A stretch of 64,000 nt of DNA from Polyangium sp. 15x6 (GTDB lineage Bacteria; Myxococcota_A; Polyangia; Polyangiales; Polyangiaceae), in contig NZ_JASBQE010000007.1 of the NCBI RefSeq assembly GCF_029960785.1, forward strand, positions 1-64,000, given 5' to 3'. Of the stretch, positions 1-24,333 are shown piece by piece (within the stretch, counting starts at the first letter, position 1; each line of letters opens with the position of its first letter). The notes below the pieces were generated by a model, which saw only the letters and a program-made list of their open reading frames with translations, did no database searches and was not told the DNA's origin. The translations under genes were made by a program, and so were the position numbers.

Positions 1-1837
1 GCGTCGGCGAAGGCCCGAGCCGCTCGCGCAGCGCGCTCGCCCGCTCGGCCGCCTCGTCCGGCCGGCCCGAGCGCGCCAGGACGAACGCCGTCAGGCACGC
101 CGCCGCCGCTTCCGTCTCCCGCTGCGCCGGGCTGCTCCCGCCCGGCGTGGACAGCGCCGCGTGGCTGAGCGCCGCGAGCGCGCGCGCGTCGTCGCCGCGC
201 TCGATCGAGATCACGCCGAGCACGAGCGCCGCGTCCGCCGCGAGCGCGCGCAGATCCACCGAGGACGTTTGACCTGCAAACTTCCACTCTCCGGCGAGCT
301 CCAGCGCGGCCGAGAGGCTGTCGGTCGCGAGGGCGAAGCGCTCGCGGGCCGCGTGGCGCTTGCCTCTGCGGTAGAGCGCGAGCAGCACGGCCTCGAAGAT
401 CTCGGGATCCTCGTGCCTGCGGTCGTGGAACCGCCGGACGACCTCGTCGTACTCGCCCGTCTCGGTCTGCGCCGAGAGGTCGCCGAGCGCGAGGAACGCC
501 TTCGCCGTCTCCTTGCTCCCTCGCTCGTCACGCACCGCCTCGCGCACGATCGCCGCGCAGATCTTGGCGGCCTCGGCGTTCCTCCCCTGCGCCCGGAGCG
601 CCATGGCCTCGGCCAGGCGCTCGGCGTGCTGGGCCGAGAGCTTGCGCGACGAGAGCGGATCGGGCCGCGACGGCCGATCCGTGGCGCTCGTCGGGCGGCT
701 GCCGGACGTGGTCCCGGGCGGCGACGACAGCCCCGGCGAGCTCGGCCTCTCCGTGGGCACGACGCGGATGCCTTCCGCGGGCGTCGCCTGGGGCGCCGCG
801 CGGCGCGCCTCGATCGCCGAGAGCAGCTCCGCCGACATGGGCCGCGCGCGCGCGCCGACCTTGATCGGGCTCGTCTTCGAGAGGCACTGCACGAAGCGGA
901 AGTAGGCGTGCGAGAGCCCCTGCGGATCCGACGTCGGCTCGACCTCGGCGGCGAGGCGCGGGGCGGGCTTCGTGGTGCTGCGCTGCGGGATCTGCGCGAG
1001 CTCGAGGTAGAGCGAGAGATCACACGCGGGCAGCGCGAGCGTCTGCCGGAGGAGCGCTTCGAGCCGCGGCCGCGCCTCCTCCACGAACGCGCGACCCGCG
1101 GACCCGTCGGCCACGTGCACGAGCAGCGGGAACAGGTGGATCGGCCGATCCGTCGAGGCGATCGCGCGCCTGCCGTGCGCCCAGGCGCCGAGCTCGATGG
1201 CTTCTTCGAGCGACGCGTCGTCGAGCACCACCACGAGCTTGTCGGCGAAGTGCGAGGCGAGGAGCGCCGTCGTCTCGGTCTCGCCCGTCGGCGCGTCGAG
1301 GAGCACCGCGTCGTAGCGCCCGCGTAGCGCTGCGGCGATCTCTTCGAGCACGCCGGGGAATGCTTCGAGCCCGTCGAGCGGGCGGTTTCGCTCGCGCGGC
1401 GTGTCCTCGCCGCCGACGGGCAGGAAGTGAAGCTCCACCGTCCGGTCCTCGGGCAGACCGGGGTAGCGCAGGGGCACGCGCCGGATCGTGGCCTCGTTCG
1501 CCTCGATGATGCGCTCGACGAACTCGCGCGCCGCGCCGCCGCCGCCGGGCCCGCGCGTCGCCGGGAAGCGCCGGGCTTCTTCGCGTACGGACGCGAGCAG
1601 ATCGACGACGCCGGGCGCGGGCCGCGGCCTCGGGGCGCTCGACGTGGCGGCGCGGCGCTTCGTGTCGTCCGGGAAGTACCGCGTGAGCGTGGGCGAGTCG
1701 ACGGCGAGGTCGACGACGAGGACCTTGTCGCCGCGATGGGCGAGCAGGGCCGCGACGTTTGCCAGGGCCATCGCGCGTCCCGCGTCGCTGCGGGCCGACG
1801 CGAACACGGCGAGGTAGCCATCCCGAACGGTAGGCAA
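1..1837 (-). CDS. ParA/MinD-like ATPase with degenerate P-loop and C-terminal helical-repeat region (3' end off the window)
   Basis: The frame is open from the left edge to a TTG start at 1837, preceded seven bases earlier by GGAGGG, so about 612 codons are visible and the C-terminus is missing. Residues 16-22 read RSDAGRA followed by MALANVAALLA. This aligns with the KGGxGRSMALAN Walker A of one ParA-like group, but the glycines are lost and Arg replaces the signature Lys. A VLVVDLAVDSP strand follows, and near residue 175 YDAVLLDAPTG resembles the Walker B region. A Pro/Ser-rich linker leads to a C-terminal stretch rich in Ala, Glu and Arg that looks like TPR helices. Nucleotide hydrolysis is doubtful given the P-loop. 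The family assignment is by motif; the role is unknown. Confidence 0.75.
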   Translation of the reverse strand, partial: MPTVRDGYLAVFASARSDAGRAMALANVAALLAHRGDKVLVVDLAVDSPTLTRYFPDDTKRRAATSSAPRPRPAPGVVDLLASVREEARRFPATRGPGGGGAAREFVERIIEANEATIRRVPLRYPGLPEDRTVELHFLPVGGEDTPRERNRPLDGLEAFPGVLEEIAAALRGRYDAVLLDAPTGETETTALLASHFADKLVVVLDDASLEEAIELGAWAHGRRAIASTDRPIHLFPLLVHVADGSAGRAFVEEARPRLEALLRQTLALPACDLSLYLELAQIPQRSTTKPAPRLAAEVEPTSDPQGLSHAYFRFVQCLSKTSPIKVGARARPMSAELLSAIEARRAAPQATPAEGIRVVPTERPSSPGLSSPPGTTSGSRPTSATDRPSRPDPLSSRKLSAQHAERLAEAMALRAQGRNAEAAKICAAIVREAVRDERGSKETAKAFLALGDLSAQTETGEYDEVVRRFHDRRHEDPEIFEAVLLALYRRGKRHAARERFALATDSLSAALELAGEWKFAGQTSSVDLRALAADAALVLGVISIERGDDARALAALSHAALSTPGGSSPAQRETEAAAACLTAFVLARSGRPDEAAERASALRERLGPSPT

Positions 1838-1966
1838 TCGAAAACCCTCCAGCGGCCTACTTTCGCATGTTGCGGCCGCGGTACAAGAGGGTCTCTAGCG
1901 GCAGCCGTGCTCCCTGGGGGTTTGGGGGCGCAGCTCGGCTTGCCGAGCGTAGCCCCCAAGCGCAAA

Positions 1967-19902: not shown

Positions 19903-21987
19903 GTGATCAGCGATCTGTCCAGGCTCAGGAACATAGGAATCAGCGCCCACATCGACTCGGGGAAGACCACGCTGACCGAGCGCATCCTCTTCTACACGAA
20001 GAGGATCCACGCCATTCACGACGTGAAGGGCAAGGACGGCGTCGGCGCGAAGATGGACTCGATGGACCTCGAGCGCGAGCGTGGCATCACCATCCAGTCC
20101 GCGGCGACGCACTGCACCTGGGGCAACACCCAGATCAACATCATCGACACGCCCGGCCACGTCGACTTCACCATCGAGGTCGAGCGTTCGCTCCGCGTGC
20201 TCGACGGCGCGATCCTCGTGCTCTGCTCGGTCGCGGGCGTGCAGTCGCAGTCGCTCACGGTCGATCGCCAGATGCGCCGCTACGGCGTTCCGCGCATCGC
20301 GTTCGTCAACAAGTGTGACCGCGCCGGCGCGAACCCGCTCCGCGCGCGCGACCAGCTCCGCGAGAAGCTCAACCTGAACCCGGTGCTCTTGCAGCTCCCG
20401 ATCGGCCTCGAGGACAAGTTCGAGGGCGTCGTCGACCTGATCAAGATGAAGGCGTTCCGGTTCGAGGGCGCGAACGGCGAGAAGATCCTCGAGTCCGACA
20501 TCCCGGCCGGCATGCAGGCCGAGGCGCAGAAGTGCCGCGAGGAGATGCTCGACGCGCTGAGCATGTTCTCCGACGAGCTCACCGAGGCGATGCTCGAGGA
20601 GAAGGTCACCGAGGACCTCATCAACAAGGCGATCCGCTCGGCCACGATCAAACTCCAGATCGTGCCCGTGATGATGGGCTCGGCCTACAAGAACAAGGCC
20701 GTGCAGCTCCTGCTCAACGGCGTGACGACGTTCCTGCCCTGCCCGACGGACGTGACGAACCACGCCGTCGACCTGGAGAAGGACGAGGCGAAGATCGAGC
20801 TCGCGAGCGACTCGGACAAACCGCTCGTCATGCTCGCGTTCAAGCTCGAGGACGGTCGCTTCGGCCAGCTCTCGTACTTGCGCGTCTACCAGGGCACGAT
20901 CTCGAAGGGCAAGGAGATCACGAACACGCGCACGGGCAAGCGCCACAAGGTCGGCCGCCTCGTCCGCATGCACGCCGACGAGATGGAGGACATCGAGAAC
21001 GCGGGTGCCGGCGACATCGTCGCGATGTTCGGCGTCGACTGCAACTCGGGTGACACGTTCACCGATGGCACGCTCAGCGTGGCCATGACGAGCATGCACG
21101 TGCCCGACTCGGTCATCTCGTTGACCGTGACGCCGAAGGACAACAAGGCGCAGGTCAACATGTCGAAGGCGCTGAAGCGCTTCACGAAGGAGGACCCGAC
21201 CTTCCGCGTGGGCAGCGATCCCGAGACGAACGAGACGGTCATCCACGGCATGGGCGAGCTGCACCTCGACGTGTACATCGAGCGCATGAAGCGCGAGTAC
21301 GGGGCCGAGGTGGTGACGAGCCCGCCGCGCGTCGCGTACCGCGAGACGATCACGCGCAGGACCGAGTTCAACTACACGCACAAGAAGCAGACCGGCGGCT
21401 CGGGTCAGTACGGCAAGGTCGCGGGCTTCATGGAGCCCTGCGACGAGGCGTACGAGTTCGTCGACGACATCACGGGCGGCTCGATCCCGAAGGAGTTCAT
21501 CCCCTCCTGCGACAAGGGCTTCCGCTCGATGCTCGTGAAGGGCCTCGTCATGCAGGCCCCCGTGACGGGCGTGCGCGTGACGATCAACGACGGCGCGGCC
21601 CACGCGGTCGACTCCTCGGACATCGCGTTCCAGGAGGCAGCGCGCGGCGCGTGGCGCGAGGCCTACCCGAAGGCGGGTCCGCAGATCCTCGAGCCGCTCA
21701 TGAAGGTGGCCGCCGAGAGCCCGAGCGAGTTCCAGGGCGGCGTCGTCGGCATCCTGATGCAGCGCCGCGGCATCATCATCGGGACGACGGAGTCGGACGG
21801 CTTCTGCCGCGTCGAGGCAGAGGTCCCCCTCGCCGAGATGTTCGGGTTCTCGACCGTTCTTCGCTCCGCGACGCAGGGCAAGGCAGAGTTTACCATGGAG
21901 TTCTCCCGGTACGCTCCGGTCCCCGGCGCGATCGCCGAGGAGCTCATCAAGAAGCACAAAGAAGAGCAGGCGAAGAAGGGGAAGTGA
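19903..21987 (+). CDS. fusA: Translation elongation factor G of the mitochondrial EFG1/spdEFG type
   Basis: The GTG start has AGGAG eight bases upstream and gives 694 residues, the normal EF-G length. GTPase motifs are intact: AHIDSGKT at 15-22, RGITI in switch I at 60-64, DTPGH at 82-86 and NKCD at 136-139. Domains II to V follow. Between G1 and switch I it reads [17 protein letters not shown], the signature of mitochondrial EFG1 and of the spdEFG group of spirochaetes, planctomycetes and deltaproteobacteria. The canonical bacterial EF-G has a shorter HDGAATMDWME-like stretch here. It catalyses ribosome translocation or a specialised part of it. It is not in a str operon; the next gene, an ATPase, starts eight bases after its stop. 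Confidence 0.95.
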
Positions 21988-21995
21988 GGGCACCG

Positions 21996-23312
21996 ATGTA
22001 CCGCAAAGAGGTCAACGAGCGGAGCCCCATGCGGGTCTTCGAGAAGTCGATGCACGGCGGCCTGGGCCGCGGGAACGTGGGCGTCGTGCTCTCGCGCGCG
22101 GGCGTCGGCAAGACGGCGCTGCTCGTGCAGATCGCGCTGGACGATCTGCTGCGTGACCGGCGCGTGCTGCACATCTCGACGGAGCACGCCGTCGATCACG
22201 TGCGCGCTTACTACGACGAGCTGTTCCACGACATCGCCACGTACACGAAGCTCGCCGAGCCCGAGTCCGTGCGTCTGGATCTGGAGCGTCACCGGCTGAT
22301 CTTCTCGCTCCTCGGTCACGCGAACACGACCGAGGGCGCGTCGTCGTCGATGAAGAAGCTCATCGACACGGTGGCGTTCGCCCGCGAGATCGCGCACTTC
22401 ACGCCGGACGTGATCATCGTCGACGGCTTCGACTGCGCGCACGCGACCGAGGCGATGATCGACACGCTGATCACGCTCGCGCGGGATCACTCGGCCGAGC
22501 TCTGGCTCTCGACGACGACGAAGGCCGGCGAGGCCAAGGCGGGCTCGGCGCCCGCGCCGGTCGATCGGTTCTTCGACAAACTCGGCGTCGTGGTCTTCCT
22601 CGACCCCGAGAAGGACGTCGTGCGCCTGCGCCTCTTGAAGGACCACGACAGCAAGGAGATCGCCGATCTCTCGCTCCGCCTCGAGCCGCACACGATGCGG
22701 ATCATCGACGCGGACATCCCGCCGGCCTCCGAGCGCCCGCGCGACGCCAAGCGCTTCCGCCTGTACTCGGGCGGCGCGAAGGGCGCGGAGGCGGCGTTCG
22801 GCGCGTGTGCGGAGCGCTGGGGCCTGACGGAGACGAACTACAGCTTCGAGGGTCACACGCTGCGCGAGCGCACGCGCGGCGTGCAGGTGCTGAGCGAGGC
22901 GGACCTGCGCCGCGGCGACTTCAGCCTTGTCTACGTGTCGAAGCGCCTCGGCCGCGTGCTCAGCGAGATCCCGCTGGTGCGCAACGTGCTGCAGACGATC
23001 TGGTACCAGATCAACGCGGCGCGCGAGGTCTTCGTCGTGGGCCAGATCCAGGACGACGGCACCGTGCGCGGCGGCACGGGCTGGGGCGCGGAGCTCGCGC
23101 GGCTCTGGAAGAAGCCGCTCTACGTCTTCGATCAGCAGAAGCGGACCTGGTTCCGCTGGAGCGGGTCGGCGTGGGAGATGGCGACGCTGCCGATGATCAA
23201 GAGCGAGGCCTTCGCCGGCATCGGTACGCAGAACCTGACCGACGACGGCAAGCAGGCGATCGAGGAGCTCTTCCAGCGGTCGTTCGGCGACCCGCCGTCG
23301 AAGCGCGACTGA
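21996..23312 (+). CDS. P-loop ATPase fused to a SLOG/LOG-like Rossmann nucleotide-binding domain
   Basis: GAGGG lies five bases before the ATG at 21996, and the gene starts eight bases after the EF-G stop, so they form an operon. Of 438 residues, about 15-240 are a RecA/KaiC-like ATPase with Walker A SRAGVGKT at 33-40 and Walker B DVIIVDGFD at 138-146. About 254-400 is a second domain opening with YSGGAKGAEAAFG at 257-269 and containing VVGQIQDDGTVRGGTGWGAELA at 347-368. That GGAxGAE plus GGTxxGxE layout is typical of SLOG superfamily nucleotide-binding domains (LOG, DprA, YspA relatives). A terminator follows the gene. The function is unknown; a nucleotide-sensing ATPase is an inference. Confidence 0.82.
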   Translation: MYRKEVNERSPMRVFEKSMHGGLGRGNVGVVLSRAGVGKTALLVQIALDDLLRDRRVLHISTEHAVDHVRAYYDELFHDIATYTKLAEPESVRLDLERHRLIFSLLGHANTTEGASSSMKKLIDTVAFAREIAHFTPDVIIVDGFDCAHATEAMIDTLITLARDHSAELWLSTTTKAGEAKAGSAPAPVDRFFDKLGVVVFLDPEKDVVRLRLLKDHDSKEIADLSLRLEPHTMRIIDADIPPASERPRDAKRFRLYSGGAKGAEAAFGACAERWGLTETNYSFEGHTLRERTRGVQVLSEADLRRGDFSLVYVSKRLGRVLSEIPLVRNVLQTIWYQINAAREVFVVGQIQDDGTVRGGTGWGAELARLWKKPLYVFDQQKRTWFRWSGSAWEMATLPMIKSEAFAGIGTQNLTDDGKQAIEELFQRSFGDPPSKRD

Positions 23313-23332
23313 CGTCGATTCGCGGTGAGTGG

Positions 23333-23373
23333 AAACCCCAGTACGGCCTGGCCGTGCTGGGGTTTTCGTTTTT
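23333..23373 (+). terminator. Rho-independent terminator after the EF-G/ATPase operon
   Basis: A stem of 14 base pairs with one G-T pair is formed by 23333-23346 (AAACCCCAG...) and 23352-23365 (...CTGGGGTTT), with a five-base CCTGG loop. It is followed by a T-rich run (TTCGTTTTT). It begins 20 bases after the ATPase stop and separates that gene from the cation transporter. Confidence 0.9.
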
Positions 23374-23403
23374 GGGGCGGCCGCTCGTGATACAAGGGCT
23401 CCC

Positions 23404-24333
23404 GTGTCGTCGTCGGAAGACCATTCGACCTCCCATATCGTCCAGTCGTTGCTCGCCAACCTCGCCATCGCGGCGGGCAAGGGCGTGGTCGCGTTCCTGA
23501 CGGGCTCGGGCGCGCTGCTCGCCGAGACGCTGCACTCGGCGGCGGACTGCGGCAACCAGCTGCTGCTCCTGCTCGGCGTGAACCGGGCGCGCAAGAAGCC
23601 GGACGCGTCGCATCCGCTCGGCTACGGGCGTTCGCTCTACTTCTGGTCGTTCCTCGTCGCGCTGCTCCTGTTCTCGGGCGGCGGCGTGTTCTCGATCTAC
23701 GAGGGGATCCACAAGCTCGGCCATCCCGAGCCCGTGGAGAAGGTGCACCTCGGCCTCGGGATCCTCGGGTTTTCCCTGCTGATCGAGGGCGGCGCGACGC
23801 TCTCGAACATCCGCGAGATGAACAAGCGCCGCGGGCAGAAGCCGTTCTTCCAGTACCTCAAGGACACGAAGGACTCGGACCTCGTCGTCGTCTTCGGCGA
23901 GAACGCGGCGGCCTCGCTTGGCTTGATCCTCGCGTCGCTCGCGCTGACGGCGGCGTGGCTCACGCACGATCCGAAGTGGGACGCGATCGGGAGCATCGCG
24001 ATCGGGGTCGTGCTCGTGGCCGTGGCGGTCTTCCTCGCGGTGGAGATCATGTCGCTCCTGATCGGCGAGTCGGCTGATCCGGAGGTCGAGGTGGCGGTGC
24101 GGCAGGTGGTCGCGGCGCACCCGAAGATCGACCGCGTGCTGCACGTGATCACGGTGCAGCAAGGTCCCGGCGAGGTGCTCGTCTGCGTGAAGGTGAGTTT
24201 TTACGATGGCGTGACCACGAACGAGGTCTGCGCGGCGATCAACGAGTTCGAGGCGTCGCTGCGCCACCGGCGGTCCGACGTGCGCTGGTGCTTCGTCGAG
24301 CCGGACATTCCCCGCACCGCCCAGGTCGCCTGA
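23404..24333 (+). CDS. Cation diffusion facilitator family transporter (ZnT9-like branch)
   Basis: The GTG at 23404 has AAGGG five bases upstream and gives 309 residues. About six membrane helices precede a soluble C-terminal ferredoxin-like domain. The metal site in helix 2 reads HSAADCGNQ, and HPLGYGR follows in the cytoplasmic loop. In helix 5 the usual Asp-based motif is replaced by GENAAASLG. The same Glu-for-Asp arrangement is known from the SLC30A9/ZnT9-like branch, so metal choice may differ from classic Zn/Fe exporters. It should export divalent cations in exchange for protons. Transcription should be separate from the upstream operon because of the strong terminator between them. 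Confidence 0.9.
   Translation: MSSSEDHSTSHIVQSLLANLAIAAGKGVVAFLTGSGALLAETLHSAADCGNQLLLLLGVNRARKKPDASHPLGYGRSLYFWSFLVALLLFSGGGVFSIYEGIHKLGHPEPVEKVHLGLGILGFSLLIEGGATLSNIREMNKRRGQKPFFQYLKDTKDSDLVVVFGENAAASLGLILASLALTAAWLTHDPKWDAIGSIAIGVVLVAVAVFLAVEIMSLLIGESADPEVEVAVRQVVAAHPKIDRVLHVITVQQGPGEVLVCVKVSFYDGVTTNEVCAAINEFEASLRHRRSDVRWCFVEPDIPRTAQVA

Follow-up and report, generated by a model that had tools for sequence, protein, structure and literature searches.

EF-G is among the best studied of proteins and, where two such factors form a pair, EF-G1 is the translocase. In the accessible portions of PMC3150367 and PMC4342817, spdEFG1 and mtEFG1 are members of pairs that divide translocation and recycling between them, and a KDG insert in switch I defines spdEFG1 (PMC3150367); those portions name no partner gene for spdEFG1. 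Described counterparts of the protein considered here come from two other areas. ArlH, according to the excerpts available of PMC8978795, is KaiC-like, binds ATP without hydrolysis, autophosphorylates and acts as the regulator of a motor ATPase, ArlI. Enzymes of the LOG type break the glycosidic bond of nucleotides and carry the motif PGGxGTxxE, and PpnN is a LOG-related nucleosidase stimulated by (p)ppGpp (both from extracts of PMC6717881). In extracts of PMC9503650, the sensing of ADP-ribose-type signals is described or predicted for other SLOG domains.

The window, a stretch of 64,000 nucleotides from Polyangium sp. 15x6 (contig NZ_JASBQE010000007.1, positions 1 to 64,000), carries an EF-G gene followed by a gene for a predicted ATPase fused to a predicted SLOG domain. 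The features, with the evidence for each, are as follows.

19903..21987, forward strand: EF-G, classed as spdEFG1 (mitochondrial EF-G1-like), first gene of the pair; TIGR00484, score ranking and KDG insert.
21986..21989, forward strand: GAGG, Shine-Dalgarno-like, overlapping the EF-G stop codon; from the sequence.
21996..23312, forward strand: ATPase-SLOG fusion gene, 438 amino acids and stop; relatives share the start.
21996..22706, forward strand: predicted RecA-fold ATPase domain of the KaiC/DnaB/RadA class, residues 1-237; profiles, model and VIA-align.
22092..22115, forward strand: Walker A, SRAGVGKT (residues 33-40); conservation among 103 ATPase sequences.
22407..22424, forward strand: Walker B, DVIIVD (residues 138-143); conservation among 103 ATPase sequences.
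22749..23291, forward strand: predicted SLOG domain, residues 252-432; phrog_768 match, model and VIA-align.
22770..22790, forward strand: GGAKGAE motif (residues 259-265); conservation among SLOG sequences.
23070..23093, forward strand: GGTGWGAE motif (residues 359-366), resembling PGGxGTxxE of LOG; conservation among SLOG sequences.
23330..23373, forward strand: intrinsic terminator; hairpin folding and terminator scan.

The initial annotation had reported Walker A and B motifs in the N-terminal half of the product, GGAKGAE and GGTGWGAE in the C-terminal half, an eight-base gap behind EF-G and a strong terminator after the gene, and each of these is borne out. Eight nucleotides separate the EF-G stop codon (21985-21987) from the ATG at 21996. 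Among relatives the distance from the EF-G stop to the match is 31 nucleotides or less at 22 of 23 full-length loci, the remaining one (L020) having 126. A mechanical ORF caller placed the start at GTG 21651, inside EF-G; the relatives lend this no support and ATG 21996 is preferred. The terminator hairpin (approximately 23330-23370) has a folding energy of -33.8 kcal/mol, with z -3.5 against 200 shuffles, one of which was equally stable, and downstream of it is the T-run TTTTCGTTTTT. A simple scan also finds the terminator; it reports 2 terminator-like sites in all, against 1.8 from shuffles. Beyond the terminator lies a cation efflux (CDF) gene (window 23329-24333). The GTG listed as its start overlaps the terminator, and translation probably begins further downstream. 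The ATPase-SLOG protein of the window is 97% identical to a protein of P. fumosum (L049).

Which EF-G is this? The initial annotation spoke of EF-G in general, and that holds to the extent that the protein scores 957 bits with TIGR00484 (cut-off 659); the designation has to be narrowed, however, to the mitochondrial type, spdEFG1. Against solved chains it gives 778 bits with mitochondrial EF-G and at most 633 with other EF-Gs, whereas the order is reversed for the str-operon EF-G of the host (921 bits with bacterial EF-G, 547 with mitochondrial); the grouping is by score ranking, not by a tree with reference rows. The KDG insert is present in switch I of the window EF-G (GKDGVG) and absent from the str-operon protein. 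Judged by sequence, then, the window EF-G is spdEFG1 and not the str-operon EF-G. Besides that of the window, the host carries two EF-G-type genes, L175 (contig C95) and L176 (contig C82), which makes three in all. One of the two is of str type, placed between S7- and EF-Tu-like genes that were recognised by eye rather than by a family search. The other is divergent, scoring 354 bits against the profile of the window EF-G, and we take it to be EFG II-like.

Conservation in the ATPase half was assessed with 103 sequences of less than 95% identity. In Walker A, Gly36 and Gly38 are invariant, Lys39 is kept in 102 and position 40 is threonine or serine in 96; residue 143, in Walker B, is acidic in all 103 (aspartate in 76, glutamate in 27). 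His59, Tyr73, Pro137 and Trp170 are likewise invariant and constitute a signature of the family's own. We match the region of position 63 to the catalytic glutamate of RecA and KaiC. Glu63 is present in the window protein; among the 103 relatives the position is glutamate in 25 and aspartate in 25, an acid occurs at 62 or 63 in 50, and a conserved catalytic glutamate was not found. On the basis of this position and the P-loop conservation, ATP binding seems general across the family and hydrolysis is doubtful in many of its members.

Profile searches place this half near several related ATPases. With NCBIfam it matches KaiC_arch_4 (E 1.8e-5). In Pfam it falls under the cut-offs of AAA_25 and KaiC (PF06745; 20.2 bits where 26.6 are needed) and it is not filed with ArlH in NCBIfam (NF052589), where it scores 18.5 against a cut-off of 215 bits (E 0.0013). 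A search of phage protein families gives a DnaB-like family at E 2.1e-7, and the profile of the N-terminal half matches DnaB-like helicase at E 2.7e-9 and RadA at 2.3e-6. The AlphaFold2 model of both domains, built on an alignment of 47 rows, has a mean pLDDT of 89.3 and a pTM of 0.58. Foldseek with the whole two-domain model puts KaiC at the top (E 6.9e-13), yet with a TM of 0.39 and an rmsd of 13.8. VIA-align of residues 10-240 gives Z 21.0 with DnaB (2r6d, rmsd 2.9, 202 aligned), 20.3 with KaiC (2gbl, rmsd 2.9, 198 aligned) and 20.2 with RadA (8rxc, rmsd 2.4, 186 aligned), and DnaB, RAD51-type, KaiC and RadA structures are tied on this predicted model at Z 19.7-21.0. The model places the N-terminal half among the RecA-fold ATPases, in the KaiC/DnaB/RadA class, with no firmer assignment, and because the Z values are tied ArlH and KaiC serve here as an analogy.

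The C-terminal half matches phrog_768 (DprA-like) at E 1.4e-6 and, modelled alone, has a pLDDT of 91.9. One structure stands apart in VIA-align, 3imk (Z 13.4, rmsd 3.3, 143 aligned). Next is DprA (4ljk) with rmsd 4.5 over 128 aligned residues and Z 6.4, a value that on its own could reflect a common arrangement; the remainder reach at most 5.5. Foldseek with the domain alone also lists 3imk first, at E 4.5e-3, with nothing below 0.001. The title of 3imk is that of a putative molybdenum carrier; we assume that it belongs to the cpYpsA family (PF12694). The SLOG alignment profile matched no solved structure at E up to 10. For the window protein Pfam lists no SLOG family, and neither DUF4478 nor DUF3412 of the PpnN type; among 36 SLOG members there are weak matches to YAcAr (6 members, best E 0.0087), cpYpsA (2, 0.015) and DprA (1, 0.069). 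A Pfam match to phage Nu1 was set aside, being single and weak (E 0.0068, 1 of the 36). The SLOG assignment is supported by the modelled fold, the motifs and the weak Pfam matches, in agreement with the SLOG-like domain proposed initially, and the structure comparison did not turn up a fold of the kind that does not bind nucleotides.

All 133 SLOG sequences compared share Glu279, Arg320, Gly349, Gly359, Gly360, Thr361, Gly362, Trp385 and Trp388, and Glu366 is kept in 132; the pocket seems to be under strong constraint whether the domain is fused or free. Phage records contain SLOG relatives too: 20 of 50,697 match, with identities of 24.8-33.1% among the 10 matches listed.

It had been proposed that homologues would be found beside EF-G. 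This is correct for the ATPase half, almost without exception, and incorrect for the SLOG half on its own, the relatives of which do not lie beside EF-G. The surveys share genomes, so that their counts, which were obtained from profile or tblastn matches, cannot be added. Among 97 relatives, 24 genomes match, including that of the host. They hold 25 loci, at which 23 full-length genes and one remnant lie directly after EF-G and a lone SLOG gene (L025) does not; all 23 full-length ATPase genes are thus directly 3′ of EF-G. The lone gene (L025, 1483-2031) is a second SLOG paralogue, its genome (G045) having the fused gene as well. At the remnant locus (L024, genome G055, 1500-1950, minus strand) EF-G is followed by a SLOG remnant lacking the ATPase half, which looks like a decayed copy; the genus-mate G010 has the full gene (L020). 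A scan of GTDB, taking the best 80 of 539 confirmed loci, gave 26 that bear the ATPase, every one preceded by EF-G. ATPase-only genes lie directly behind EF-G at 20 of 20 fetched loci, and a search of 26 genomes gave ten clear ATPase genes, all ten after EF-G, five of which repeat earlier loci.

The largest sample comprised 377 genomes of the host phylum, 140 of which have the ATPase (E ≤1e-15), with one match each. In 134 of the 140 it is directly 3′ of EF-G. For 106 of the 111 genomes with an EF-G among the matches listed, adjacency follows from the coordinates, gaps being taken between match edges; for the other 34, fetched DNA shows it in G114 (one of five unmatched) and in 27 of 29 unlisted genomes. 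In G223 the contig ends 99 bases from the ATPase match. In five genomes of a single genus, g158 (G169, G177, G208, G294 and G335), no EF-G precedes the fused gene; in G294 the upstream sequence is 161 bases long, and the EF-G of that genome sits on another contig that continues beyond it. The loci of this genus at which the fused gene is away from EF-G are L191, L192, L193, L208 and L211.

The arrangement extends to other phyla. In Desulfobacterota, the phylum of a Desulfobacteraceae MAG, 61 of 218 genomes have the ATPase and 29 of 30 fetched loci follow EF-G, the remaining one having 118 bases upstream. In Acidobacteriota, the phylum of an Acidobacteria MAG, the ATPase is present in 11 of 139 genomes and follows EF-G at nine of 11 loci (eight of ten new ones, and L179), with 141-142 bases upstream at the other two. 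The pair is kept together in at least three phyla. A quick EF-G tree nests the Acidobacteriota EF-Gs that have the fused gene among those of Myxococcota, although contamination of MAGs is possible; given this nesting, the pair may have moved to Acidobacteriota as a unit.

The linkage is not reciprocal, since many spdEFG1 genes are without the ATPase. A close EF-G is found in 195 of the 377 host-phylum genomes as against 140 with the ATPase, and at 36 fetched spdEFG1 loci, from genomes preselected as ATPase-negative, no ATPase was found downstream (five of these loci have little sequence). On the quick tree the label for absence of the ATPase requires seven changes, at least four of them on well supported branches.

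Co-regulation of two genes whose products never touch would account equally for the tight spacing and the single terminator, and one genus does keep the genes apart. Against such shared expression, the pair holds over three phyla and the ATPase follows EF-G in the apparent transfer to Acidobacteriota. Moreover, among 64 EF-G loci the commonest neighbour cluster besides EF-G and the ATPase occurs at 17, in a clustering built on crude gene calls, some of them antisense frames, that recovered the ATPase cluster at 47 of the 64. We regard shared expression by itself as quite unlikely, and the ATPase-SLOG protein as very probably a dedicated partner of EF-G1.

The presence of a SLOG domain also brings to mind defence or conflict modules, which would shut down translation on phage signals; the SLOG domains of Thoeris sense cADPR isomers (abstract of PMC11204291; also PMC9503650). 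Against this, PADLOC returns a weak match only (mads_8, E 0.028), the 140 genomes have one match apiece, tied to a translation gene, and the neighbours, surveyed by clustering of crude gene calls rather than by TIR or SIR2 family, include no further conserved gene. A defence role is scarcely credible to us.

The SLOG domain has a wider distribution of its own, being found in 123 of the 377 host-phylum genomes. Of its 125 places, 75 either are fused with the ATPase or lie immediately downstream of it; a further 39 are at other positions in genomes that have the ATPase, and 11 are in genomes without it. Once genomes with the fused gene are set aside, 65 genomes with the ATPase remain, and 37 of them carry a separate SLOG; of the 237 remaining without the ATPase, 11 do (odds ratio 27, Fisher p 3e-20, kinship ignored). 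At one locus (L080) EF-G, ATPase and SLOG are three consecutive genes. No SLOG was found at E 1e-30 in 28 of the 140 ATPase genomes, which suggests that it is not always needed or was missed in drafts. In 21 genomes chosen for a lone SLOG the ATPase has no match in 15, a weak one in one and a clear one in five. A SLOG gene 54% identical to that of the window occurs in a MAG record titled Bifidobacterium breve (L059), a title that may be wrong.

No fixed neighbour of SLOG was found across 73 loci, L080 included, with a crude caller that recognised SLOG at 56 of them. From the best 80 of 539 loci in the GTDB scan, 51 of 54 lone SLOG genes have no EF-G match and three have a distant translational GTPase. 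In a separate EF-G search no EF-G-like GTPase was found near the lone SLOG at 68 of 72 loci in the DNA examined; at the other four SLOG lies directly before another translational GTPase. At L091 (207-2595) the SLOG stop overlaps the start of TypA/BipA by 8 nucleotides, and L101 (5861-6614) is a near-copy with the same SLOG-TypA order and 92.8% DNA identity. The SLOG proteins of L094 (6001-8285) and L097 (5297-7582) share 88% identity, and at both loci RF3 lies after SLOG on the same strand, approximately 0.15 kb away as measured by profile edges. These amount to two lineages, and the tie to translational GTPases is suggestive. The L094 genome also carries an ATPase behind EF-G.

We now consider what the pair might do. 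Our preferred reading, which we put forward tentatively, is of a nucleotide-gated switch on EF-G1. The ATPase half would bind EF-G1 in its ATP state, probably as an oligomer, and in that state would determine if EF-G1 is able to work on ribosomes, by analogy with ArlH and ArlI. The SLOG half would read or cleave a soluble nucleotide (candidates are alarmones, GMP/AMP and signals of the ADP-ribose type), and this input would determine which state the switch is in; a SLOG domain encoded by a gene of its own would act in trans. Nucleotide sensing, which the initial annotation also proposed, is something that we infer, and our confidence in the mechanism is lowered because KaiC, DnaB and RadA are equally close by structure. 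A broader proposal is that proteins of this SLOG family signal to translational GTPases generally, to EF-G1 through a RecA-fold adaptor and to RF3 and TypA directly, and that ATPase-SLOG is, among the switches known for bacterial elongation factors, the first that is dedicated and turned on or off by nucleotides. This we consider doubtful.

That DnaB is among the tied closest folds is compatible with a helper of translation rather than a sensor: the ATPase, possibly as a DnaB-like ring, would aid EF-G1 on stalled, hibernating or assembling ribosomes while SLOG acted as an RNA or nucleotide tether. The division of translocation from recycling in spdEFG1/mtEFG1 pairs makes an extra partner plausible (extracts of PMC3150367 and PMC4342817), and SLOG adjoins RF3 and TypA as well. 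Such a helper is nevertheless unlikely, as the SLOG pocket, invariant in 133 sequences, fits ligand binding or catalysis more than tethering and the glutamate position for hydrolysis is not conserved.

Residue 223 of EF-G bears on a further possibility. An earlier, smaller comparison of the EF-G interface had passed three positions. Of the positions tested, 223 ranks first by Fisher p: 48 of the 50 EF-Gs accompanied by the ATPase carry serine there; in 26 without it the residue is aspartate in 11, asparagine in four and serine in 11. Tree-aware pairs give 3.5 for and 0.5 against with Ser223 (median p 0.375) and 3.5 for and 0 against with Asp223 (median p 0.125), neither being significant. Having failed these tests, residue 223 is kept as no more than a lead. 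It would bear on a reading in which the ATPase half phosphorylates EF-G1, with tuning by the SLOG half; KaiC is one of the tied closest folds and ArlH is an autokinase (extracts of PMC8978795). The lack of significance in the tree-aware pairs and the retention of Ser223 in 11 of 26 EF-Gs without the ATPase count against covalent modification, and we judge it very unlikely.

If EF-G1 is indeed under a nucleotide-gated switch, this could explain why spdEFG1 is kept beside a canonical EF-G, as in the host, and would provide a function for an unnamed SLOG family. Cells would turn a mitochondrial-type translocase on and off with their nucleotide state, and a direct test of the regulation of translocation would be opened. 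That a second, mitochondria-like EF-G has an operon partner in at least three phyla hints, in any case, at a control on protein synthesis.

To our knowledge there is no described partner gene for spdEFG1 and no bacterial partner dedicated to EF-G by operon. We also know of no kind of system that pairs a translational GTPase with a dedicated RecA-fold/SLOG partner. The folds are known ones and the function is predicted. The window protein reaches no curated cut-off in Pfam or NCBIfam, where SLOG relatives give weak matches only. Literature searches among open-licence papers found no description of EF-G paired with ATPase-SLOG, and the pair is not described in the accessible extracts of PMC9503650, PMC7824862, PMC8978795 and PMC6717881.

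Comparison with known systems brings out both the similarities and the differences. ArlH, in the extracts of PMC8978795, is similar in having a single RecA-fold, KaiC-like domain and a partner NTPase in the same gene cluster; here, however, the partner is a translational GTPase, a C-terminal SLOG domain is added and the score is 18.5 rather than 215 bits. KaiC, DnaB, RadA and RAD51 share the fold and the P-loop, but the window protein lies under the curated cut-offs and has its own signature of His59, Tyr73, Pro137 and Trp170. The predicted SLOG half resembles cpYpsA and DprA in fold (3imk, Z 13.4; 4ljk, Z 6.4), differing in that the Pfam matches are weak and that SLOG in the window is fused to an ATPase; the DprA-like phage proteins of phrog_768 have a related SLOG domain. 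With PpnN and LOG the likeness is in GGTGWGAE, which keeps the GGxGxxxE core of PGGxGTxxE, but the proline is missing and tryptophan replaces threonine, so that the motif is not that of LOG. PpnN also shows such a domain tied to the stringent response (extracts of PMC6717881). As for the first gene of the pair, the window EF-G belongs with spdEFG1 and mtEFG1.
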